Positions 4,897 through 45,106 of a stretch of 48,256 bases of DNA are shown one piece after another. Source of the stretch: JBDREC01 sp043820105 [NCBI: Pseudomonadota bacterium] (lineage in GTDB: Bacteria; Bdellovibrionota_F; JAHFAK01); assembly GCA_043820105.1 (NCBI GenBank), contig JBDREC010000027.1, positions 1 to 48,256 of the forward strand, in the 5' to 3' direction. Below the pieces are notes generated by a model. The model did not search any database. It worked only from the letters and a program-made list of their open reading frames with translations, and was not told the origin of the DNA. The first letter of the stretch is position 1, and each line of letters starts with the position of its first letter. The translations under genes were made by a program, and so were the position numbers.

Positions 4897-4965
4897 GGAA
4901 ATATCATCATTTTGCTTGTGGCTAAAGTATCGGGATTATGGCTAGACTTGGGAGAAAAATTGAAA

Positions 4966-6462
4966 ATGAAATTTCTATATAAGTTAGTAATATTTTTTTT
5001 GATTTTTGCTATCTTTTCCTGCACGAAAAATGAAGCTGGTGATGATCAAAATCAATCAAATGAAAATGAAAATCTATCCACAATAACAGCCTACATAGAC
5101 TATGAAGATCTTTTAGAAAATGAAGACCTAATTAATTTTGATAATTCAATAACTTATGATTTCGCAGCATCTAGCTCCGGGATTATTTCGCCAGTCACCA
5201 TCCCTACTCCTGCTTTTTTAAAGGAAGTCAAATCTCCTCAATATAAATCAATAAAGAATAGTAGCCAAAATATCAATCCACTTTACTGGGTTGCAACAAA
5301 TCTTGATTTAAAAGCAGAAACTTTATCAAGTGATATTACAGCAAGTGATTCATGGATTACATGGGCCCTACCTGATGCATCAACGTGGATTGCATCTGTT
5401 TCTGTTGAGCAAAATGAAACCTTTAGACTTTATTTAGTCTCGCCTTCATGCATTGATCTTACTGATTGCTTACTAACACTCAATAAAGATTCAATTGTTG
5501 AATACGAATCATTTTATGGAGCTAAGCAATTTAGTGTTTCAACAATAAGCGACTATGATATTGGAACTTTATCACTTGATGCAAATTTTACAGAACCTGT
5601 CCTGGCTAGCTCTAACATTGCCATTTCACTTGATGGTTTTGAAGAAAAAGGCACACTGAATACCAATGCCCTGGCAATTTATACTGTTGAAAACTCAGGC
5701 AGCTATTATTCTGAAGCCACGTTATCAAATAGTAATATGGTTGAATATAATGAGCCAGCCTCTACTAATTCACAATTCCTTAAGTGCGATAGTGAAAATG
5801 AATATTACCTGACCTTAAGCCCTTCAGAAAATGCTAGCTCATTAATCAAAGATGAAACAATTAGAGCTATTTCTGTTTACGCATCCATTAAGGTTCATGA
5901 TAATAACAGTGATGAAACATATAAATATGTGCTTATTTCTGAATTTGCCTCTGAAGTTGAAAGTTTAGCTTCAAAACAGATGTTTAAAGTAAGATTACAA
6001 GAAGATCCTGATAATCCAGATGATTCATATTTAACAGTAAATATTCTTGAAAATACAACAATAAGTCTGGCGACTTATTTAAATGATAGCTCATATGCTG
6101 GGGCAAAGCTTGAAAAAGGCAAATGGTACTTCTTTGTGCTAACAATGTACTTTTTTGGTGAAGCCTCAAATAAAAAGATTGGCTCAGATCTTTATGTTTT
6201 TAATGAAGCAGGACAAGGCACCAGGGTAACTGGATATGAATCTATTGCAAATATCTCTAATTTTTCAGATTATGAATGGGCCGAAGCATTTTCTGTCTGC
6301 CACTTCAATCAAAATAATAATGGAGAAGCTTTGCAAGGTATCTCAGCTATTCCAAATATCTATCTGGATAATATTAATATTTATGCAAAAATCACCTCTC
6401 AAGCTCAAGCAACAAGTATTTTCAATATTGAAAAAGAAAAAGTTGCATATTTCAACAATTAG
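4966..6462 (+). CDS. Outer-surface lipoprotein, paralogue of the 19017 gene
   Basis: The open frame begins further upstream (TTG at 4912), but the ATG at 4966 puts a normal lipoprotein signal at the N-terminus: Lys, hydrophobic core, then IFSC as lipobox, followed by a Ser/Asn/Glu/Asp linker. GGAG at 4951-4954 could also serve a TTG at 4960, two codons earlier. The mature part starts with ITAYIDYEDLL and has an SGIISPVTIPTPAFLK segment shared almost exactly with the protein at 19017-20519. The C-terminal third has a KGKWYFFVLTMYFF segment that resembles the strand pattern of LamG/concanavalin-like folds. Role unknown; a surface-exposed binding or structural lipoprotein is inferred. The kinase-regulator gene follows about 110 bp downstream. 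Confidence 0.7.
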   Translation: MKFLYKLVIFFLIFAIFSCTKNEAGDDQNQSNENENLSTITAYIDYEDLLENEDLINFDNSITYDFAASSSGIISPVTIPTPAFLKEVKSPQYKSIKNSSQNINPLYWVATNLDLKAETLSSDITASDSWITWALPDASTWIASVSVEQNETFRLYLVSPSCIDLTDCLLTLNKDSIVEYESFYGAKQFSVSTISDYDIGTLSLDANFTEPVLASSNIAISLDGFEEKGTLNTNALAIYTVENSGSYYSEATLSNSNMVEYNEPASTNSQFLKCDSENEYYLTLSPSENASSLIKDETIRAISVYASIKVHDNNSDETYKYVLISEFASEVESLASKQMFKVRLQEDPDNPDDSYLTVNILENTTISLATYLNDSSYAGAKLEKGKWYFFVLTMYFFGEASNKKIGSDLYVFNEAGQGTRVTGYESIANISNFSDYEWAEAFSVCHFNQNNNGEALQGISAIPNIYLDNINIYAKITSQAQATSIFNIEKEKVAYFNN

Positions 6463-6538: not shown

Positions 6539-6574
6539 ATTTACTATGTTTATCTCTAAGTTTGTGAGGGAATT

Positions 6575-9500
6575 TTGAAAGATATTATCTTAGATTATTT
6601 AAAGCACATTGAAAGCTTAGAAAAATATTCATTGAGTTCTATTAAGTGTTATGTAAAAAGGCTTAATGATTTAAAAATATTTTTAGCTAAAAAACAAGAA
6701 GTAGAGCAAATTGACTTAAATGATATTAAAGCTTTTTTAAAGAATCTTGAAGATAATAACACAGCAATTGGCACCTATAATCAATATGTAACATCTATAA
6801 AGGGCTTATTAAAGTTTCAAAGCAATATTCAAAAAACAAAAGATTTAAGCAAAGAAATAAAGGTGAAGGCTAGCGAGCAAATTTCAACAATTTCAAAAAA
6901 AGCTATTATCACTTTTTTAGAGAATATTAAAGACATAGAGGATACTAATAAAACACTCTTCCTTTTATATATTCTTACAGATATCAATTTAAAAGAAACA
7001 CTCAATTTAAAGAAAAAGGATATTTTAATAGAAGAAGGCCGAATAGGAATTAAAAAATCAGAAAAAAATGTATATTCTTATTATTTAATACATACAAATA
7101 AATATGGTGTTCGCTTAAAAAAGGAGCTTTCAATAATAATTGAAAAAACAAACAAATATTTATTTGAATCATCAAAAGCAAAACCCATGTCCCCTCCCCA
7201 TGTGAATTATCTTTTTAATAAATATAAGAAATACATCCCTGAGAACTGTGATTCAATAATGAAATTAAAATCATCTGAACTCTTTCTTGGAATAAAAGGA
7301 AAAGATATTATCGTAAAAATACCCGAAAACTACGAAGTAAAAAACTTATTGGCAGACGGACTTGATTGCAATCTTTATCATTGCTATGACCATACTAGAA
7401 AAATTGATCTGGTAATTAAAATAATAAATAATCCCAGCTATTCAAATGAATCTTTTCAAAGACTAAAAAATGAATTTACCTTATTAAAATCATTAAAACA
7501 TTCATCTCTTCCAAAGGTTTATGATTTTGTTCATAAAGCAGAAGAAAAACTGGCTTTTTTTACAATGGAATTCTTTGGACAAAAAGCGCTATCTTATTTT
7601 AAGAAAAAAGTTTCTGAAAAAGATGCCCTATTTATTCTTCATACTATGCTTGAACTTCTTAGCTATTTGAAAATAAATAATATAATTCATCATGATATAA
7701 ATCCTGCTAATATTCTCTTTAAAAAAACAACAAACAATACATATGAATTAAAACTTATCGATTTTGGCCTGGCTTCAAAAAAAGAAAGCTGCACATGCAA
7801 TTGCACAATAAAAGGAACTAACTACTTTATTGCTCCTGAGATTGTTTTTAATAAAAAAGCAACTTATAGAAGCGATATCTATTCGCTTGGAATCACTCTT
7901 TATAATATTTTATGCGAAGATTTTCCATTTTCAACAGAAAATCCTGACAAAATGTTAAAAGATATCAAAAGCAATAGTTATGTTTTATTAAATCAAAAAA
8001 ATAAAAAAATATCAGATAAGTTTTCTGATATAATTGCAAAAATGACTGTTTATGACCCTGACAAACGATATCAAAATGAAAATATCATAAAAAAAGAGAT
8101 CCAAACTTTCTTACAAAGTGGGGAGCTATTTGAAGATAGCAGTGAAAATGAAATCATAATCAGACTCCCAGACTATGTAAAAAAGAATGAAGAATTAGAA
8201 GAAATTATTTCAGACATGAATATGATCTATTCAGATGCAATTATTCATGCAAACCCACAGATTAATATCATTTCTGGAGAAACTTCTATTGGAAAAACAA
8301 GATTGATTTCCGAAATCAAAAATCAGGCTAGCTCATCTGAGATAAATATTTTTGAGTTTGATATTGAAAAAGAAAATCCTTTAGCCTGCATCCTTGAGTT
8401 TGCCTCAAAAAACAAAGAATTTAAAGTTGAACTATCAGAAAAAGAAGAATCAAATTTGAATTCATATTCTACTAAATTACAAATGAAACTAGCTTCAATT
8501 TTAGTTAAGGAACTTCAGGCACAAAAATCTATTCTAATATTTGAACACATCGCCTATTTTAAAAGAGCCTTTTACCCTTTTTTACGCTTTCTTGTTAAAG
8601 AACTTACATCAAAAAATGTTTCAGCACTAATTATATTTTCAATAAACACTGACCATGCAGACCCCAAAATCATCAATGATATAATTACACAAAAGCAAGA
8701 AGCAAAACTAAAAACCTCAATTATTCCCCTTGACAGGTTTGCAAAAAAAGAAATTAAATTATTTGTTGAATCTTCCTTAAATAAGGCAATTGAAACAAAA
8801 CTCCTTGATTACCTGGCACAAAACAGTGGTGGTAATCCTGGCCTTGTATTAATGATATTAAATAAGCTTAATGATGATGGAGCGCTTATAAATAAAAACA
8901 ATTTTATAAGCTTAAAAGAAGAAAACCTAGTTAGCTTTGAAAATAAAACTTTAGAAATTGCAAAAAATAGAATCAAACACCTAAAAACCCTCGAAAGAAA
9001 TATTGTATCTATTTTATCAATTATTGAAATGAATATTGGAATGGATGAAATCTTCAAATTGCTTTTATCACTAAATGCTAATGCAAGTGAAACTGAAATT
9101 CTAATTATTCTTGAAGAACTAATAAAAAGAAACTTTATTTCCCAGCTTGACATTAGTCCAAGTCAAAATAATATTTTATCAAATATCAAATCTTATTCAA
9201 TTCAAGATAAAAACATTAGCAACTCCATAGACCGCATACTAATAACAAAAGAAAAGAAAGCAATTCACTTATCAATTGCACAAATGCTAGAATCACATTC
9301 GAATTTTAACAATATTCCTAAAGAAAAGATAGCTCTTCATTATAAGGCTGCTGGTGACAAAAAAATAGCATATAAATTTTTTCTTTTAGCAGCAGAAGAA
9401 AATCTTTCTATCTTTAACCTTGAAAGATCTGTCTATAATTATAAAGAAGCAATAATGCAAATTGATGATATTAGTCAAAGCATAATTACTGAAAAGAAAA

Positions 9501-12445
9501 ACCATATTTTATTTAAACTTGCAAAGATACAGATGCAAATGGGTGATTATCAAGATTCTGAAAACTCTTTAAATGCAATTGATAAAATTCTTCTTACCAT
9601 AAAAGATGAAATCGAATATCACAAAGTAATAGGACGTTTATTAAACAGAAAAGGCAAACAAACTGAAGCAATTGAATATTTTGAAAAGTCTTTAAATTTT
9701 TCAGATATTGCAAAATACCCTGAACTTCATCAAGAATTAATTCTTTATAAAATCTCAGCTCTTTTAGATTCACATAATTACCAAGAAGTAGTGTCAATTA
9801 TTTCAGATCTTTCTGATTTTAATTTTACTGATAAAAATCAAGCCACCTATTACTATTTATTAGGATCTTTACATTACCATAAGCAAGATACTAACAATGC
9901 TATAGATAATTTGAAACTATCGCTAAACCTTTCAATAAAAATTTCTGACAAGTATGGAATATTAAATGCAAGTAATATGCTAGGATCAACTTACTACTTC
10001 CTCAGAGACTTTAATAAAGCCATTCATTGTTACAACGAAGCTCTATTGCAAGCAAAACATCTTTCTGATCTATACTTAAATGGCTTAATTCTTCAAAATC
10101 TGGCCTCATGCTATTTTCAAAAAGGAAGCCTTAATAACTCATTATTAAACTATTTAGAAACATATGACCTATTTTCGGATCTTGATTTCCCCAGAGGATC
10201 TGAAGCACTGCTTTTAAATATTGGTTTAGTTTATCTAGAGATAGGCAATATTAATTTGGCTTTAAAATATAAGGAAAAATCATTAAAACTAGCAATAAAA
10301 CGAGATAATAAAATGATTGTTGCCTATAATCATTATCTTGAAGGTGAGATTTTAGCAAATAATAAAGACCTTGAAAATTCTTTTTCATCCTTTTCTTTAG
10401 CGCAAAAAACCTTTGATTCAATGCAAATTGAAATAGCTAGCCTTGAAACATCACTTGCAATTATCAAACTTAGAATTGCAAATAATGACCTGGATGCAGC
10501 CAACAAAGCTTTAGAAGAAATTAAGCACAAAACAATAAGGGATAAAAAAGTAACAATTGAAATACGCTTAATCCAAAGTTACTTAGCTCTTAAGAATAAT
10601 GACCTGCTTTTAGCAAAAGAACTCCTTGAGTCAATTGATATAAATCAAATAGAAACACAAAATTATAACACAAAACTTTATTACTATAAAATATATACGA
10701 ACTATTTTGATACTATAGCGAACCAGGAGCAAGCAAGCAGTTTCGCTAAAAAAATTATTAAGCTTATTACCTACCTTAGCAATAATGTACCTGAGTCATC
10801 AAAAATTGATTTTTTCAATAAAGATAAAATAAAAACCGCAAAACATCTGGCAGCTAAAGTTCTTATGCAAAATGAAGAATTAAGCTCAAACAACAAATTA
10901 CAAACAATTAGCAATTTGCTTATGAGCCTTGCTAGCATAAAAGATGTTAATAAACTTTATAACTCTATACTGGATAACGCTATTTTATTTTCCAATGCTA
11001 AAAAAGGATATATTTTATTATTTGATGAAAAAAATCCACGTGGAAAAGCTGCTAATAATTATAAAATTATAGCAGCTCGTAACTTTTTAAACTCTGAGCT
11101 AAATAAATCAAGCCAAATTTTGAGTCAAACTATTTTAAATAAAACATTAAAACAAGACCAAATATTAAACACAGAAAATGCAATTGAAGCCTTTGAAAAC
11201 TCAAGAAGTATCGCAGAAGCTAAACTAAAAAGCATCTTAAGTCTTCCTATTATTTACGATAAAAATATTATTGGACTTGTCTACCTTGAAGACTCAGATA
11301 AAATTGGCACCTTTTCAAAAATTGATAAAAACTTTATTCAAACTTTTGTCTATGCTATTTCTAATATCATTGCATCTTCAATGCTTATAGAGGAATTAAA
11401 AGTTAAAACTTCTATTATAGAAACGCATAATTTAAACTTAGAAAATCAGTTAAGCAATGCTGAAAGTAAATGTGAAAAAGCTTCCAGAGTCATAAAAGAA
11501 GCAAAAATCATTGATCTTCCATTATATAATAATAAAAATATTATAAGCCAATCTGAAGCATTAAAAACTATTTTTAAGATTATTGAACAAGTAAAAGATT
11601 CAGATATCCCTATTTTAGTTACAGGGGAAACAGGTACTGGAAAAGAACTTATTGCCAGGTCAATTCACTACAATAGCAAAAGAAGAGAAAAGGAGTTTTT
11701 CTCTGAAAACTGCGCAGCTTTAAGCGAATCACTCCTTGAAAGCGAACTTTTTGGACATGTAAAAGGTAGCTTTACTGACGCTATTACAGACAAAAAAGGC
11801 ATATTTGAAATTGCAGATGGCGGCTCAATATTTCTTGATGAAATAGGTGAAATGTCTCTTGAGATGCAAAAGAAATTTTTAAGAGTTCTTCAGGAAAAAA
11901 CCATAAGGCCAGTTGGAGCAAATAAAACGATAAAAGTTGATTTCAGGTTAATCTGTGCTACTCATCGAGATCTTAAAAAAATGATAGCCAAGGGTGAGTT
12001 TAGAAGCGATTTATATTACAGAATAAATGCAGTTGAAATTCATAACCCTGCCCTAAGAAACAGAAAAGAAGATATTCCTATTCTTGTTAAACATTTTCTT
12101 TCCAAATACGCTGATGGCGAAGAAAAGAGATTTTCAAAAGAGCTCCTAACTTGCTTTATTCATTATGCCTGGCCTGGTAATATTAGAGAACTCGAGAATG
12201 AAGTTAAAAGACTTATCCTTTTATCAAAAAATAAATTAATTACCAAAGAAGATCTTCATGACAATAGGTTTAAAGAAGGTGAACAAGTAAAGGAAAATAT
12301 AATGACCCTGGCTGAAGCTGAGAAAAAAGCAATCTGGCTTGCATTAAAGCACACCAATGGAAACCAGAAATCAGCTTCTGCGCTATTGGGAATTGATAGA
12401 AAGACGATATTGCGAAAAATTAAAAAATACAGGATACCGCTTTAA
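6575..12445 (+). CDS. Giant regulator: recombinase-like + Ser/Thr kinase + ATPase + TPR + GAF + sigma-54 activator
   Basis: A 1956-residue multidomain protein starting at TTG with GAGGG at 6566-6570. Order by approximate residue: 1-85 SAM-like core-binding domain as in XerC/XerD; 105-240 a region aligning to the recombinase catalytic domain but lacking its Arg/His/Arg residues; 250-500 a Hanks kinase with the VIK lysine, HHDINPAN catalytic loop, DFG and APE motifs but no proper glycine loop; 540-900 a P-loop ATPase (GETSIGKT, about 567); 920-1430 TPR-type helical repeats; 1440-1610 GAF; 1650-1850 sigma-54 activator AAA+ (GETGTGKE, FLDEIGEM, RSDLYYRIN); C-terminal Fis-type HTH. The GAFTGA loop reads GSFTDA. 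Kinase-ATPase-TPR-GAF-activator proteins are known as large enhancer-binding regulators; the recombinase-like head is what I have not met. Target genes are unknown. Confidence 0.85.
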   Translation: MKDIILDYLKHIESLEKYSLSSIKCYVKRLNDLKIFLAKKQEVEQIDLNDIKAFLKNLEDNNTAIGTYNQYVTSIKGLLKFQSNIQKTKDLSKEIKVKASEQISTISKKAIITFLENIKDIEDTNKTLFLLYILTDINLKETLNLKKKDILIEEGRIGIKKSEKNVYSYYLIHTNKYGVRLKKELSIIIEKTNKYLFESSKAKPMSPPHVNYLFNKYKKYIPENCDSIMKLKSSELFLGIKGKDIIVKIPENYEVKNLLADGLDCNLYHCYDHTRKIDLVIKIINNPSYSNESFQRLKNEFTLLKSLKHSSLPKVYDFVHKAEEKLAFFTMEFFGQKALSYFKKKVSEKDALFILHTMLELLSYLKINNIIHHDINPANILFKKTTNNTYELKLIDFGLASKKESCTCNCTIKGTNYFIAPEIVFNKKATYRSDIYSLGITLYNILCEDFPFSTENPDKMLKDIKSNSYVLLNQKNKKISDKFSDIIAKMTVYDPDKRYQNENIIKKEIQTFLQSGELFEDSSENEIIIRLPDYVKKNEELEEIISDMNMIYSDAIIHANPQINIISGETSIGKTRLISEIKNQASSSEINIFEFDIEKENPLACILEFASKNKEFKVELSEKEESNLNSYSTKLQMKLASILVKELQAQKSILIFEHIAYFKRAFYPFLRFLVKELTSKNVSALIIFSINTDHADPKIINDIITQKQEAKLKTSIIPLDRFAKKEIKLFVESSLNKAIETKLLDYLAQNSGGNPGLVLMILNKLNDDGALINKNNFISLKEENLVSFENKTLEIAKNRIKHLKTLERNIVSILSIIEMNIGMDEIFKLLLSLNANASETEILIILEELIKRNFISQLDISPSQNNILSNIKSYSIQDKNISNSIDRILITKEKKAIHLSIAQMLESHSNFNNIPKEKIALHYKAAGDKKIAYKFFLLAAEENLSIFNLERSVYNYKEAIMQIDDISQSIITEKKNHILFKLAKIQMQMGDYQDSENSLNAIDKILLTIKDEIEYHKVIGRLLNRKGKQTEAIEYFEKSLNFSDIAKYPELHQELILYKISALLDSHNYQEVVSIISDLSDFNFTDKNQATYYYLLGSLHYHKQDTNNAIDNLKLSLNLSIKISDKYGILNASNMLGSTYYFLRDFNKAIHCYNEALLQAKHLSDLYLNGLILQNLASCYFQKGSLNNSLLNYLETYDLFSDLDFPRGSEALLLNIGLVYLEIGNINLALKYKEKSLKLAIKRDNKMIVAYNHYLEGEILANNKDLENSFSSFSLAQKTFDSMQIEIASLETSLAIIKLRIANNDLDAANKALEEIKHKTIRDKKVTIEIRLIQSYLALKNNDLLLAKELLESIDINQIETQNYNTKLYYYKIYTNYFDTIANQEQASSFAKKIIKLITYLSNNVPESSKIDFFNKDKIKTAKHLAAKVLMQNEELSSNNKLQTISNLLMSLASIKDVNKLYNSILDNAILFSNAKKGYILLFDEKNPRGKAANNYKIIAARNFLNSELNKSSQILSQTILNKTLKQDQILNTENAIEAFENSRSIAEAKLKSILSLPIIYDKNIIGLVYLEDSDKIGTFSKIDKNFIQTFVYAISNIIASSMLIEELKVKTSIIETHNLNLENQLSNAESKCEKASRVIKEAKIIDLPLYNNKNIISQSEALKTIFKIIEQVKDSDIPILVTGETGTGKELIARSIHYNSKRREKEFFSENCAALSESLLESELFGHVKGSFTDAITDKKGIFEIADGGSIFLDEIGEMSLEMQKKFLRVLQEKTIRPVGANKTIKVDFRLICATHRDLKKMIAKGEFRSDLYYRINAVEIHNPALRNRKEDIPILVKHFLSKYADGEEKRFSKELLTCFIHYAWPGNIRELENEVKRLILLSKNKLITKEDLHDNRFKEGEQVKENIMTLAEAEKKAIWLALKHTNGNQKSASALLGIDRKTILRKIKKYRIPL

Positions 12446-12474: not shown

Positions 12475-14160
12475 CTATAAGATTTCAAGATTTTTTTCAA
12501 TAGCTATATTATCATAAACAGTATTATTAGTGAATTTAATTGAAATATTTGCGTCTTCTTTTAATAAGCTCTTTAGCTCGCTAGTTATAATTCTCATTCT
12601 ATCATAACCTTTAAGATCAATGCACTTCATTTTATTTAGTTTGCTGATTCTTTTGTTTGGCCTGTCTTCCAAATCAACTTTTTCTCCAGATTCAATAAAT
12701 TCAAATCTTCCAGCTTTAATTAAAATTATATTTTCATTTTCATATTCTATCAATGAATCTATTAGTTTTAAAAACCAATTGGCTCTTCGTAAAAGCAAAC
12801 CCAAATGACTAATAGAGCCTTCTATAAAGGAAGATACTCTGGCTACATCCCATAATGCCCCAACAATCACCTGTTCATCTTCATCTTCATCATAATCACA
12901 ATCGTCATCTTCCTTCGCTAGCCTATCCTTAAAAAAATGCAAACTAAATTCCATAAAATTTCTGTATGAAATTCCCTTTTTAATGTAATAGCGATTTCGC
13001 TTTCTAAACTCCTTTACTCCCTGCTTAAACATTTCCATATCTGGTGCATATTTATTTTCAACACCAAAAATCTCATAAGCCTTTTCATAATTAATCCGGC
13101 AAGAGAAAATACTGGAAATAGAATCAAAAGCCAAACCTGATTCGTTCATAAGAAATGGTCCAATATTGAATGTTGAACTTGGTCTTTCAGAATATTTCTG
13201 AAATTGCTTATCATAAAAAACAATTTTCCTTCGATTTTCTTTTAAAGCTTTATTATAAGGAGGTGAGTACTCTTTAATTTCGTCTGATTCAATAATAGCT
13301 GCTTCTATCTCGCTTTTACAAAGCTTAATTTTTATATCTTTAGCCTGTGAAAGCATTTCAAGAATATGCTCAGCATGCTTACTTGATTTTTGGAAATAAC
13401 TTTTCACCCTGCTTTTTAAGGATTTAGCTTTCCCAATATACAATAGATCGCCATTTGAACGAAACATTTTATATATCCCAGGTTGCTCGGGAAGTTTTAA
13501 TAAAAATTCTTTTTCTATATTATATTGTCTTTCAACCTTTTTAATTTCCTTATTTTCAAGCCATTTTAAGAGATCAAATAAGGTGTAAATATTAATTTCT
13601 TCAAGTAAGCCGATTAAATTGTTCCAAACAAATTTTGTTGCAATAACATGACCTTCTGCCCTTCTTAACTCTGAAACTGAATAAGCGAAATATCCAGCGC
13701 AAGCCCTTAAACCTTTTCGAGGAAGAGCTGGAATAAGTCTTTTGACAATTTCATGAGTACAAATAAATTCATATTCAAAATCTATTTTCTTAAGTTTATT
13801 TTTTATAATATCTTCAATAAAAGGCTTTTCATAACGAGCAAAATGTGCAAGAAAAATTACTTTTTCATTAAATTCACAAAATTCGTTTAAATCTTTATCA
13901 AAATAAGAGAGCACATCTTCAAAACTTCTAGCACTTAACAAATCTTCTTTTTTAATACCTGTTATATAACTTATATTTCTTTTAAGTACAAAATCAGAAT
14001 CTTGTCTTATTAAAAATGACTTTATTTCAGCTTTACCCTTTTCTGCCTCATCGATTCTACCAAAACAACCCCAAGCAAGCTCCAACAAAGTCCCTTGTGA
14101 GCTAAAGGGTTTTGTCGCCTGACAATCCAAAACCAAAACATTTAATTCCCTTAACTTCAA
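12475..14160 (-). CDS. DnaQ-like exonuclease / GIY-YIG nuclease fusion
   Basis: A 561-residue protein from a TTG start at 14160 with AGGAG a few bases upstream. Residues 1-200 follow the DEDDh exonuclease layout, but the first motif is D12-C-Q14 where DnaQ has D-x-E, and the last motif keeps H171 without the usual following Asp. Residues 225-310 are a UvrC/Cho-type GIY-YIG domain with GIY (228-230), YIG (241-243), Arg251, and Glu291 in a context like UvrC. The remaining 250 residues, which include an acidic DDDCDYDEDEDE patch, are unassigned. DnaQ plus GIY-YIG fusions are known in several phyla and thought to act in DNA repair. The broken helicase gene ends 16 bp upstream in the same operon. 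Confidence 0.8.
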   Translation of the reverse strand: MKLRELNVLVLDCQATKPFSSQGTLLELAWGCFGRIDEAEKGKAEIKSFLIRQDSDFVLKRNISYITGIKKEDLLSARSFEDVLSYFDKDLNEFCEFNEKVIFLAHFARYEKPFIEDIIKNKLKKIDFEYEFICTHEIVKRLIPALPRKGLRACAGYFAYSVSELRRAEGHVIATKFVWNNLIGLLEEINIYTLFDLLKWLENKEIKKVERQYNIEKEFLLKLPEQPGIYKMFRSNGDLLYIGKAKSLKSRVKSYFQKSSKHAEHILEMLSQAKDIKIKLCKSEIEAAIIESDEIKEYSPPYNKALKENRRKIVFYDKQFQKYSERPSSTFNIGPFLMNESGLAFDSISSIFSCRINYEKAYEIFGVENKYAPDMEMFKQGVKEFRKRNRYYIKKGISYRNFMEFSLHFFKDRLAKEDDDCDYDEDEDEQVIVGALWDVARVSSFIEGSISHLGLLLRRANWFLKLIDSLIEYENENIILIKAGRFEFIESGEKVDLEDRPNKRISKLNKMKCIDLKGYDRMRIITSELKSLLKEDANISIKFTNNTVYDNIAIEKNLEIL

Positions 14161-14176
14161 TTATCTCCTAATCTCC

Positions 14177-15656
14177 CTATTCCCTTGTTCCCCAAAACTC
14201 CCCCAAAATCACATCAGCTTCATCATTAGCACTTACATCACTAGCCTTCCAATCACCTGGAAAGAGTTTTCTATAATGTTCATATCTGTATCGCTCATCA
14301 ATTAACATAATAGAACCTTTATCATCTGCTGATCTAATAACCCTTCCTGCAGCTTGTAAAACTCTATTAATCCCTGGATATTTATAAGCGTAACTATAGC
14401 CATCAACATCCTTACTTGAAAAATATTCTTTAATTATTTCTGTTTCCTAAAAAAGATGCTTTGGAAAGGTAAGCTGAATGCATCTCTCTTGCCCTTTCTG
14501 GTAAATTATGGGCTTCATCTATAAGCAAAACATCTTTTTTCAAAGAGTCAATTAATAATGATTTTAAAGAAACCTCAGGATCAAAGAGATAGTTGAAATC
14601 GCAAATAATAATATCTGCCCACCTTGCAAACTCAAAAGACAAATAATAAGGACAGAGCTTATGTTTTTTAGCAATACTTATTAATGTTTCCTGGTCAAAT
14701 AAAAATTGTCTAAAAAATTCTAGCCTGGCTTTTTCAAGATTATCAAAATAATTTTTACCGTAAATACAAGTGCCACTTAAACAGTCTTTATTAGGATCAA
14801 GGCAAATCCTTTCTTTTGCTGAAATTGTTACAGATTTTATTTTAAGGCCATTCTTAATTAAATCATTAATCGTCTCCTGGGCAATTATTTGACCTGTTAC
14901 CTTTGAAGTTAAATAAATATTTCTTGATACCTTTTTTTTAGATATTGCCTTAATACTTGGAAATAGCGTTGCAATTGTTTTTCCAATTCCAGTAGGTGCC
15001 TGAGCTATAAACTGACCCTTATTTTTTATTATAGACGAAACATCATTAATCAACTCTTGCTGTCCAGGCCTATGAGTTTGATATGGAAATTCCAAGTCTT
15101 TAATTGATAAATCTCTCTTAGTTCGATGGTTTTCAACCGATATTAACCAATCCAAATATTTATCAACTAAGCCATTTAAATATTCATCAAGCTCAATGAC
15201 ACTCCACTCATTAAAAATAGTTTTTATTTCTGCGGTTTTTATATGATAATAAGTAAGTTGTGTTTGCAGTTTTTGAATGCTATTTTCCTTTGCATAAATA
15301 GCAGCATAAAGCTTAGCTTGCCCAAGATGCAAATTATGTTCAGAGTTAATAAAATCTATTATTTTACGAGAAGTTGATTTGATCTCTTCAATGATTATAG
15401 ATCCTGAAATATCGTAAACCCCATCAATTCTACCAAGAACTCTTAATTCAAGGTCATCTTTTATCCTTTTATATTCAACCTTAACTTCTTTTTTATAAGC
15501 AGGCCCTCGTTGTGATTGCAAACGCTGATGAGCCCAAATCCCATTGCTTAATGCTTTCTTAAATACAGCGAAATTTGAAAAAGAAAGCCCACCTCTTCTT
15601 TCAAAAAAATATATTAAATCTCTAACTGATATGGTGTACTTAATCATAATCTCCAA
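14177..15656 (-). pseudogene. XPD/DinG-type helicase with internal deletion and frameshift
   Basis: The 5' part (15656-14430, 408 codons) has a PD-(D/E)xK nuclease-like N-terminus (D78, E90/E91, K93), the Walker A motif APTGIGKT, four cysteines placed as in the XPD iron-sulphur domain, and the DEAH box. The frame then runs out within a few codons. In another frame, from about 14438 to a TAG at 14177-14179, the sequence encodes the missing C-terminal end: YKYPGINRVLQAAGRVIRS is helicase motif VI, then LIDERYRY. Family members run to about 750-800 residues, so some 250 internal codons (motifs III to V) appear lost. The product should not be an active helicase. A shorter functional nuclease-like fragment cannot be excluded. 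An assembly error is the main alternative. Confidence 0.75.
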
Positions 15657-19016: not shown

Positions 19017-20519
19017 ATGATGAATAAAACATTAATTATTTTAGCTAGTTTGCTACTATTTTCAGCTTGTACCTTATTCCAATCAGGTGATGGTTCTTCT
19101 GATGATTCTGGTTCTGATTCTGATAGCCAATCAAGCAGTTCTGATTTTGATATATCATCCATAACAGCCTGGCTTGATTATTCAGAAATTATTACAAGGT
19201 CAGATGTTGCTGATAATACAAGCATAATTTCAAGAAATGATGTTACTAATACTAGTGGAATTACTTCTCCTGTTACAATTCCTGTACCTAATATATTAAA
19301 ATCTAATGCCAAAACAAAAAAAGCTTCAGAATTTAAAGCCTTTAGTACAGATAATCCTCCTCCAATATTGTTAGTTGCATCAGATGAAAACCCAAGCTCT
19401 GCTGATGTAACTTTTTTAGCATGGGCCATGGCAGATGCAGATGGTTATGTGGACCTTTCTGTTGATACAGAACAAACTTTTAGTCTGTATCTTGTGCTGC
19501 TTACTTGTAATGATTTTGAAACTTGCAGACAGGAGCAAGATGACTCATTGATATTTAAATATGGCACCTATTATGGTCAAGATTCTTTTTCAATTTCTGT
19601 AAAAGGAACCTACAATATCGGTGAAATGGCTCTTTATGATCATATCTCAACAAGCGAAGCATTAACAAGCCTAAGGGCTGAGAACTCTCTTGATGGTCTG
19701 GATAATATAACAGCAAGCTCAACAGATCGGCCTGACGTGCTTGCAATATTAACAGCAGAAGGTACTAGTTCTTTAGATACTCAAGCTACCATTGAAAGTC
19801 CCAATGAAATGATAGTCACATCAACTACTAATTTGCAATATATTAAGTGTCGTCGAAATAATGACCACTTTATAAAACTCGAACCTGATTCAAATGCACT
19901 TCCTGTCATTGATAATGGCTATCTAAAGTCTGTATCTTTAAGTTTCTGGCTAGCACCACTTCCAATCTTAGAAGAAGATGATATATATACTGTTATTGCT
20001 TCTGCTAAAATAATTGACACCATAGAAAATATTAACTCAGGATGGTTTCAAGTAAAGTTAACAAAGAGAGCTGATGATGATTACAGTGATATTAATATAT
20101 ACTCCGGAGGTCATCCTTTAATTGGTCCAGATGCTGAGCATCCAGATGGATCAGAAAATTATAAAATTTTAAATAATGATTGGAATTATGTAGTGATTAA
20201 TATTTATTTTAATAATGAAAATGGAGAAAACAGAGTATCTTCAGAGTTATATATTTATGATAAAAATGCTGAGCAAACTAAAACTACAGGATATGCAACT
20301 GCAGGAGTAAGCTCTTTTCCTGCAGCTGATTGGGAAGAATATTTTATAATTTGTGGGCAAACCTTTGAAGATGATTTGGATATAGTAAATCAGGCAACTT
20401 TATTTATAGATGATATTTTCATAGTACAGGAAAGAGCCTTAGATTTTGAAATTGATGATATTTACCAAGGGCACCTCACTAAATATAATCATACAGTTGC
20501 AACCTATCCACTGAATTAA
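19017..20519 (+). CDS. Lipoprotein, paralogue of the 4966 gene
   Basis: A 500-residue lipoprotein with signal and lipobox (LLLFSAC, Cys18), then a long Ser/Asp/Gly linker (SSDDSGSDSDSQSSSS). AGGA at 19007-19010 supports the ATG at 19017. It shares the block ITAWLDYSEI and SGITSPVTIPVPNILK with the lipoprotein at 4966, and both have a C-terminal LamG-like segment (here NNDWNYVVINIYF, then SSELYIYDK). The two are about the same length, so they are whole-length paralogues. Likely exposed at the cell surface; function unknown. It has a strong promoter and a CRP-type operator. The 3' end overlaps the convergent DUF58 gene by 4 bp. Confidence 0.7.
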   Translation: MMNKTLIILASLLLFSACTLFQSGDGSSDDSGSDSDSQSSSSDFDISSITAWLDYSEIITRSDVADNTSIISRNDVTNTSGITSPVTIPVPNILKSNAKTKKASEFKAFSTDNPPPILLVASDENPSSADVTFLAWAMADADGYVDLSVDTEQTFSLYLVLLTCNDFETCRQEQDDSLIFKYGTYYGQDSFSISVKGTYNIGEMALYDHISTSEALTSLRAENSLDGLDNITASSTDRPDVLAILTAEGTSSLDTQATIESPNEMIVTSTTNLQYIKCRRNNDHFIKLEPDSNALPVIDNGYLKSVSLSFWLAPLPILEEDDIYTVIASAKIIDTIENINSGWFQVKLTKRADDDYSDINIYSGGHPLIGPDAEHPDGSENYKILNNDWNYVVINIYFNNENGENRVSSELYIYDKNAEQTKTTGYATAGVSSFPAADWEEYFIICGQTFEDDLDIVNQATLFIDDIFIVQERALDFEIDDIYQGHLTKYNHTVATYPLN

Positions 20520-43444: not shown

Positions 43445-45061
43445 TCATTCTGTAAAACATGGTGAAGTAAGATTTGTTGTAAACTGAACAGAGCCAGAAC
43501 ACGCGGCATCACCGTTTGCACTAAGCCCACAAATAGACAAGGCCCAATGAAAAGCATTCGAATACGCAGCCTCCAGAATTTCATTAACTGTCTGAATAGT
43601 TAATGATGCAACATCTTGGCCTGCAGAAATCGAACCATAAGCGCTTGTATCAGCTGTGCATGTTCCATCTCCGTTATCAGTATATGGTACAAATCTTGCT
43701 TCATAAGTCAATCCCTTTGGTCCAACATCATTTGGAACTGTCCACCCTAAAGTAAAACCAGGAAGCCAATTAACTTGGTTAGTTGATGTATCCACAGCTG
43801 TGCCATTCTTTGTAAAAGCATATCCATAATATTTTGGTATAATATTTATTTTCTTAATGCACGTATATTCTGTTGAGTCATCATCAGCCATTGTTATAGT
43901 AAAAACAAAAGTATCGCCAGAATACATATTTTCTAGAATTCCCGCTGTCTCTGTATCAGATACACTTATACTAAAACTATCCTCTCCTTGGGTTAATTCC
44001 ATTGAAGCACAAGTGTCCCAAAGCTCACCATAGCATTCATCAGCTGAATCAAGAACATATGAATAAGCTTCTAAATAACTGGGACCAGATATTGAAACTT
44101 TAGCAAAGTCTGCCATTGTATAATCAGAATCTTCTGAAGGTGCAAAAGACATATTTAATTTGTAATCTGTAAATGCTTCTAAATCCTCAGCTATTTCAGC
44201 AGGTGTTGGAAAGCCTTCTTGGACTGCACCTGTTCCAGAGGGTGAATTTTCAACATATAAACTCACATCCCCCACAAGGCAATAATCTGTTTGCCCATCA
44301 ATTTCATCCACATAACCACTATTATCATTATCACTGTCAAACACATCTGGAGTGCCATCATTATCGTCATCCGGATCACTAGCAGCACTTACTTCATCTT
44401 CAATTTTAGCAGATTCATAATTTTCTGTTCCATCTCCTGTTAATCCTCCTGCTAAAACTTCGTCAATTGTATATGCAAGCATAAGCTCATCCTCTGCCAC
44501 ATCTACATTTGTTGTAATATTACCAGTATCCGTATAAGCTGTAACTGTTCCAATATTATCAATTTCACCATCTTCTGAGGTTGTTAATGCAATTGAAACA
44601 GAATAATCAAGGTCGTCTATTGCGGAAGTCATTAAAGTACCAATGTAGTTCATGGATGAATCAAGAAAATTTACAATGTATGAGGTTTCACTTGAAAGGG
44701 TAAATGAAAATGATCCGTTTTCTTCAAGTTGTGAAACTGCTTGGCCTTGGGTTTCGGTGTTTATTACGTGGGCATAATAACTAGAGGCAATGGCATGTTT
44801 TGAATTCGTCTTTAAGACACTGCTATCATTAGAATCCAGAACTTGTAAAAGACCGAATAATATAACCTCACCATCAGAGCTTCCAGATGTTTCTGTTCCT
44901 GAACTTCCAGAAGAGGAAGATGTATTACTTTCCCCACTCAAATCTCCGGCTGTGCCCTCACCACTTGTATTATCTGTTCCTCCAGACCCTGATGACATAT
45001 CGCAGGCTAGTAAGCCTAAAAACATTATTAAAAAAGCAGTCAAAATAACTATTTTTTTCAT
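43445..45061 (-). CDS. Lipoprotein with TSP3-type calcium-binding repeats
   Basis: The Met at 45061 is preferred over 45103: it has GAGGG 4 bp upstream and starts a lipoprotein signal (MKKIVILTAFL ... GLLAC, Cys20). A Ser/Gly/Asp/Thr linker follows, then at roughly residue 235 aspartate-rich thrombospondin type 3-like motifs (DPDDDNDGTPDVFDSDNDN). The C-terminal half is beta-rich and Cys-containing with no domain I can name. Surface exposure with calcium binding is inferred. It precedes the small membrane protein gene. Confidence 0.6.
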   Translation of the reverse strand: MKKIVILTAFLIMFLGLLACDMSSGSGGTDNTSGEGTAGDLSGESNTSSSSGSSGTETSGSSDGEVILFGLLQVLDSNDSSVLKTNSKHAIASSYYAHVINTETQGQAVSQLEENGSFSFTLSSETSYIVNFLDSSMNYIGTLMTSAIDDLDYSVSIALTTSEDGEIDNIGTVTAYTDTGNITTNVDVAEDELMLAYTIDEVLAGGLTGDGTENYESAKIEDEVSAASDPDDDNDGTPDVFDSDNDNSGYVDEIDGQTDYCLVGDVSLYVENSPSGTGAVQEGFPTPAEIAEDLEAFTDYKLNMSFAPSEDSDYTMADFAKVSISGPSYLEAYSYVLDSADECYGELWDTCASMELTQGEDSFSISVSDTETAGILENMYSGDTFVFTITMADDDSTEYTCIKKINIIPKYYGYAFTKNGTAVDTSTNQVNWLPGFTLGWTVPNDVGPKGLTYEARFVPYTDNGDGTCTADTSAYGSISAGQDVASLTIQTVNEILEAAYSNAFHWALSICGLSANGDAACSGSVQFTTNLTSPCFTE

Positions 45062-45106
45062 ACTTCCCTCTAACTTATATTGTTCCTCAATTCCCCAGAA
45101 CAAGCA

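Follow-up and report, generated by a model that had tools for sequence, protein, structure and literature searches.

The gene at positions 6575–12445 of the forward strand raises the question of what a tyrosine recombinase-like domain is doing at the N-terminus of a protein that otherwise has the layout of a sigma-54 activator. It lies in a window (the whole stretch of DNA that was analysed, 48,256 nt) with a G+C content of 31%, which looks chromosomal and carries tig-clpP-clpX-lon, pnp, an FGGY kinase gene, and other housekeeping genes. Among the matches listed for its Lon protein the best was 71% identical; a Lon tree left the window without a definite place among delta-type lineages, and the neighbouring genes did not place it either. 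The initial annotation had placed a recombinase-type head, a kinase, an ATPase, TPRs, a GAF domain, and a sigma-54 activator in one frame, and had suggested that a DNA-binding head would make it a new kind of signal-integrating transcription factor. Frame analysis and Pfam bore out the single frame. Translation starts with TTG at position 6575, and 1956 codons (1956 aa) are open without interruption. All named domains were found in this frame, the recombinase core-binding domain near one end as well as the Fis-type HTH at the other.

From the kinase onwards, Pfam applied to the whole protein recognized the following order, all on the forward strand. A Ser/Thr protein kinase domain (Pkinase; residues 253–507, positions 7331–8095, E = 1e-42) with HHDINPAN and DFG motifs is followed by an AAA_16 P-loop ATPase (residues 559–682, 8249–8620, E = 2e-9) with the Walker A motif GETSIGKT and by a TPR region (about residues 979–1354, 9509–10636). 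Next come a GAF domain (GAF_2; residues 1457–1599, 10943–11371, E = 4e-8) and the sigma-54 AAA+ domain with its lid (residues 1656–1904, 11540–12286), composed of Sigma54_activat (residues 1656–1823, E = 1e-70) and AAA_lid_14 (residues 1828–1904). The protein ends with a Fis-type HTH (HTH_8; residues 1911–1952, 12305–12430). The order kinase, AAA_16, TPR, GAF, Sigma54_activat, HTH_8 is thus complete in the window protein.

We compared this body with proteins from other genomes. Long frames matching the C-terminal half were found among 25 genomes searched, and a search of 377 genomes from the phylum to which G011, a Myxococcales bin, belongs gave one frame with an E-value of 1e-111, with two candidates scored per genome. 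Six genes (L232–L237) encoding 1421–1804 aa were fetched from four genomes, of Myxococcota and of another delta-type genome. Pkinase, then GAF, then Sigma54_activat with the AAA lid were present in all six. With the thresholds used, the domain set was complete in three of them (L232, L233, and L235), while L234 lacked HTH_8 and had no AAA_16 in place, L237 lacked AAA_16, and L236 lacked TPR. This amounts to TPR and HTH_8 in 5/6 relatives each and AAA_16 in the expected place in 4/6. The bodies of these proteins and of the window protein are alike, with 30–36% identity over the aligned part, but the relatives have no recombinase head. Their Pkinase match starts at residue 11–62 in all six cases and leaves no room for such a head, whereas 252 residues precede the kinase in the window protein. 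We concluded that the kinase-to-activator body is an already known architecture and that the unusual part is the head. The idea of a new kind of factor has to be given up for the rest of the fusion, which is common to Myxococcota and another delta-type genome.

The sigma-54 AAA+ motifs GETGTGKE, GGSIFLDEI, and FRSDLYYR are all there in the window protein. Its GAFTGA loop reads GSFTDA (residues 1731–1736, positions 11765–11782). The fifth position of this loop is G in all six relatives and D in the window protein, and D did not occur at this position in any of the 15 motifs in the fetched loci, the six relatives included. Because the loop deviates from the relatives' G, the function of the window protein as a sigma-54 activator is not certain.

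The head itself consists of two recognizable parts. Residues 7–81 (positions 6593–6817, + strand) form a tyrosine recombinase core-binding (SAM-like) domain, as indicated by Pfam, by the structural model, and by the match to 3nrw described below. Phage_int_SAM_1 (PF02899) matched these residues in the whole protein with E = 2e-7 and 31.6 bits, and the head alone with E = 1.7e-8 and 35.1 bits, both above the cut-off of 22.3. Phage_int_SAM_4 also matched the head alone (6e-7). Alignments, profiles, and PF00589 revealed that residues 110–221 (6902–7237, + strand) correspond to the initial two thirds of a catalytic domain of the recombinase type, in eroded form. Phage_integrase (PF00589) reached E = 5e-5 and 23.6 bits on the head, which is below its cut-off of 27.1, and only positions 10–119 of the 172 in the profile were covered. 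The initial annotation of a recombinase-type core-binding domain was therefore correct, but the head is more than a lone domain of this type, since an eroded and truncated catalytic domain is present too.

Other searches supported the same assignment. The PHROG_1 integrase family matched head residues 2–221 (5.6e-11), and hhalign of the head versus nine recombinases gave 98.4% over residues 7–221, with an E-value that is flattered because the nine rows had been picked as matches of the head itself. Plasmid sequences gave 26 matches; among the 20 listed, with E-values of 5e-4 to 4, 14 carry a recombinase or integrase annotation and six have none. Among 16 phage matches, the best nine were integrases, none with an E-value better than 0.1; the remaining seven were structural proteins with E-values of about 10. 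No match to the head was obtained among PDB sequences by phmmer with E-values up to 1. In global alignments, the identity of the head to recombinases was 12–25%, and on this basis we call the divergence old.

The profile matches end at residues 219–221, before the HxxR helix, and some weak plasmid alignments continue to residue 228–247. Profile ends and alignment show that the HxxR and Tyr part is absent from residues 222–252 (positions 7238–7330, + strand), which lie between the head and the kinase. A MAFFT alignment had offered residues 225–246 as a degenerate LGH...Y stretch. This candidate was dropped, as the profiles stop at 219–221 and a low-confidence single-sequence model shows strands here.

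We also compared the head with known structures. AlphaFold, when supplied with recombinase rows in the alignment, modelled the core-binding domain well, as four helices, and the catalytic part with intermediate quality (mean pLDDT 70; block pLDDT 75–93 over residues 1–90). All 50 Foldseek matches listed for this model were tyrosine recombinases. In VIA-align the top match was the N-domain of integrase 3nrw (Z 14.1, rmsd 1.8 over 96), a score that has to be read with the fact that Z near 14 also arises by chance for helical models. It was followed by XerD (Z 12.9, rmsd 14.2 over 195) and lambda Int, and MrpR was also among the matches (Z 8.2, rmsd 16.6 over 190). The head folded without other sequences gave a pLDDT of 37.7 and no usable model. 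The structural match thus leans on the supplied alignment and counts as support and not as independent proof.

The catalytic residues were compared in an alignment (A6) with 12 recombinases, all of which have the full set R...K...HxxR...H/W...Y. In the head, the catalytic Arg I is replaced by Asn138. Glu141 and the beta-hairpin Lys are retained, the latter as residue 161 (164 in alignment A1). No residue aligns with HxxR or with the third His, and a forced alignment puts Ile246 at the position of the Tyr. Compared with XerC/XerD-type recombinases (PDB 1a0p; L238 and L171), head residues 2–222 share the core-binding domain and the first catalytic part, but the head is without Arg I, HxxR, and Tyr, is truncated, and is fused to a kinase. 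Together with the profile matches, the residues that were lost or kept indicate that the head is almost certainly of recombinase ancestry and catalytically dead.

Erosion of the head was uneven. With separate profiles, its core-binding part scored 31.9 bits versus 5.7 bits for the first catalytic part; such raw bits vary with length, and of the two profiles the catalytic one is the longer. In 23 of the 24 recombinases compared, all of which had been found with the head as the query, the first catalytic part outscored the core-binding part, which is the reverse of the situation in the head. The 24 comprise loci L171–L190 and L238–L245 minus L179, L181, L182, and L186, which were excluded manually because they have no recombinase, encode a frame of 104 aa, or belong to the kinase family; for L185 the C-terminal catalytic part was without score. 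The single exception was L189, a recombinase in which Pfam recognizes no catalytic domain. This 'site-specific integrase' of a Terribacillus plasmid (L189:550–1431) keeps its core-binding domain and is a candidate retired recombinase in its own right. The loss of catalytic residues together with the better preservation of the core-binding part suggests that the head is a dead recombinase with its DNA-binding domain kept. Such uneven erosion would be expected if catalysis had been given up and the DNA-binding domain kept, although one sequence cannot demonstrate selection.

We examined whether the head could be a separate gene that was joined to the kinase gene by an assembly or frameshift error, as the initial annotation had allowed for. 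A gene break does exist in the window at about 14.4 kb, and the fusion was observed in one genome only. The codon score, which expresses the fit to the usage of the other genes in the window, was 0.18 per codon in frame for residues 1–252, compared with -0.88 and -0.66 when the two remaining forward frames are read. It was 0.16–0.24 over the rest of the gene, which matches the head and makes the score continuous across the join. The other two forward frames near positions 6951–7500 are full of stops. A recombinase profile detected no second recombinase piece in the six frames of the window, so that the missing C-terminal part is not encoded in any of them. In view of the codon usage of the head, the stop-filled alternative frames, and the lack of a second piece, we consider an artefact of this kind very unlikely.

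The start sites pointed in the same direction. Only one of the seven ATG, GTG, and TTG codons within the first 260 codons was preceded by a Shine-Dalgarno-like motif in a simple test, namely the TTG start, with GAGG at positions 6566–6569 (+ strand), 5 nt before it. The same test found no such motif at the candidate starts near the kinase, which also speaks against two joined genes. Given the absence of this motif from all other starts, and a codon usage in the head that matches the rest of the gene, the kinase is probably translated in one piece with the head.

A genuine join may nevertheless be functionless. A xer or integrase gene could have lost its end by deletion and have become fused in frame to the kinase gene, so that the head would be a decaying passenger. 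This would agree with the end of the recombinase match immediately ahead of HxxR, the place expected for the edge of a deletion. Some 2 kb away, a helicase gene looks broken, so that gene decay may be under way in this region (or assembly breaks may be present). We still regard this explanation as unlikely: the head has the codon usage of the rest of the gene, its 252 codons have no stop, and its low identity to recombinases speaks for an old divergence. The loss of the catalytic part with retention of the core-binding part would also not be as simple neutral decay predicts.

The distribution of the fusion bears on the same explanation, as no fused relative was found among the genomes searched. 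Searches with the head covered 46 genomes (E limit 0.001), 30 genomes (E limit 1), and 377, 198, 45, and 2 genomes (E limit 0.01). In these 698 look-ups, which partly overlap since some genomes were counted twice, include no close relative, and ran without a positive control genome known to carry the fusion, no fused head was detected. This follows from frame length, since all listed matches to the head fell in frames of at most 450 aa. A search with exact short peptides, which detects close kin only, revealed no relatives of the whole protein in viral_contigs or genome_contigs, and no report of such a fusion was found in the open-licence literature among the matches listed. The search for the same domain order, which the initial annotation had suggested for recognizing a real family, thus recovered the order from the kinase onwards in the relatives and no second example with the head. 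We have one example only, and in the neighbouring phyla that were sampled the fusion is rare, if it occurs at all.

If the head is neither an artefact nor a passenger, it may have kept or lost contact with DNA. Active recombinases grip DNA using both domains, and N-terminal domains of sigma-54 activators are usually regulatory and not DNA-binding. The head lacks the end of the catalytic clamp and may therefore bind DNA weakly or not at all; its core-binding part is no more than mildly basic (residues 1–90 net +3, pI 8.95). In that case the head could have given up its contact with DNA and mediate protein-protein interaction or dimerisation instead, or cover the kinase as an autoinhibitory cap. 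We take this to be possible but somewhat improbable, because what is best preserved in the head is the domain with which recombinases contact DNA, and because related folds are reported to bind DNA (PMC10516654) or are predicted to, in the case of the plant ALOG core-binding domain (PMC3537659).

The closest parallel is MrpR (YopR), the master repressor of the Bacillus prophage SPbeta (PDB 8A0A). According to PMC10516654, MrpR is a proven DNA-binding repressor with a tyrosine recombinase fold that has lost the Arg and His and kept the Glu and Lys, and its authors suggest that recruitment of recombinases as regulators is more widespread than anticipated. The head shares the fold, the absence of catalytic Arg and His, and the retention of Glu and Lys. 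Unlike the head, MrpR is a standalone protein that has a whole catalytic domain, keeps Tyr304, and is not fused to a kinase or activator. In plant ALOG proteins a recombinase core-binding domain was recruited as the DNA-binding domain of a regulator, with DNA binding predicted (PMC3537659). These proteins differ from the head in being eukaryotic and retroelement-derived and in having a zinc ribbon insert. A DNA-binding role of the head is modelled on these two cases (PMC10516654, PMC3537659); use of the head for DNA binding appears to us about as probable as its opposite.

Our best explanation, which we hold with moderate confidence, is that the protein is a sigma-54 activator of the kinase-ATPase-TPR-GAF type that gained a dead tyrosine recombinase at its N-terminus, which now serves as a DNA-binding module. 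Signals would enter through the GAF domain, the TPRs, and the kinase/ATPase activity, and would control an AAA+ ring that remodels sigma-54 RNA polymerase and opens promoter complexes. Promoters would be chosen by the Fis HTH. A second contact with DNA, either sequence-specific or anchoring, would come from the head and would serve to position or tether the activator or to bring about its auto-repression. It is doubtful, though conceivable, that the activator is two-ended, with the head on its own site, the Fis HTH on the enhancer, and the kinase-gated AAA+ part bridging or looping two loci. If true, such an arrangement would connect sigma-54 promoters to signal sensing in a new way and put retired recombinases to new use. 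Should the head bind DNA, the protein would represent a bacterial signalling activator with a captured retired recombinase as an extra DNA-binding domain, and would extend recombinase recruitment from a standalone phage repressor to a multi-domain kinase-activator fusion. Residues 1–252 are a simple testable construct for this.

The sigma-54 promoter pattern had 10 matches versus 4.55 expected, and 1 of 100 shuffles also reached 10. It was left unused since the sole exact match lies inside a gene. Inverted repeats beside the gene were not persuasive.

Some other genes of the window deserve mention. Directly upstream of the kinase-activator gene is a lipoprotein-like gene (4912–6462) that has a paralog at 19017–20519; neither has a Pfam match, and they are 29% identical over 421 columns. 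The gene at 12475–14160 (- strand) encodes an RNase_T-type exonuclease joined to a GIY-YIG nuclease domain. The XPD/DinG-like helicase gene at 14182–15656 (- strand) looks broken: the part with PD-(D/E)XK, DEAD, and DEAD_2 (14430–15656) stops prematurely, and a different frame holds, at about 14182–14400, a stretch that resembles the last helicase motifs, with the middle missing. This may be due to gene decay or to an assembly break. Finally, the gene at 43445–45103 (- strand) encodes a protein that is secreted or resembles a lipoprotein; its acidic DPDDDNDG...DSDND stretch looks like a calcium-binding repeat.
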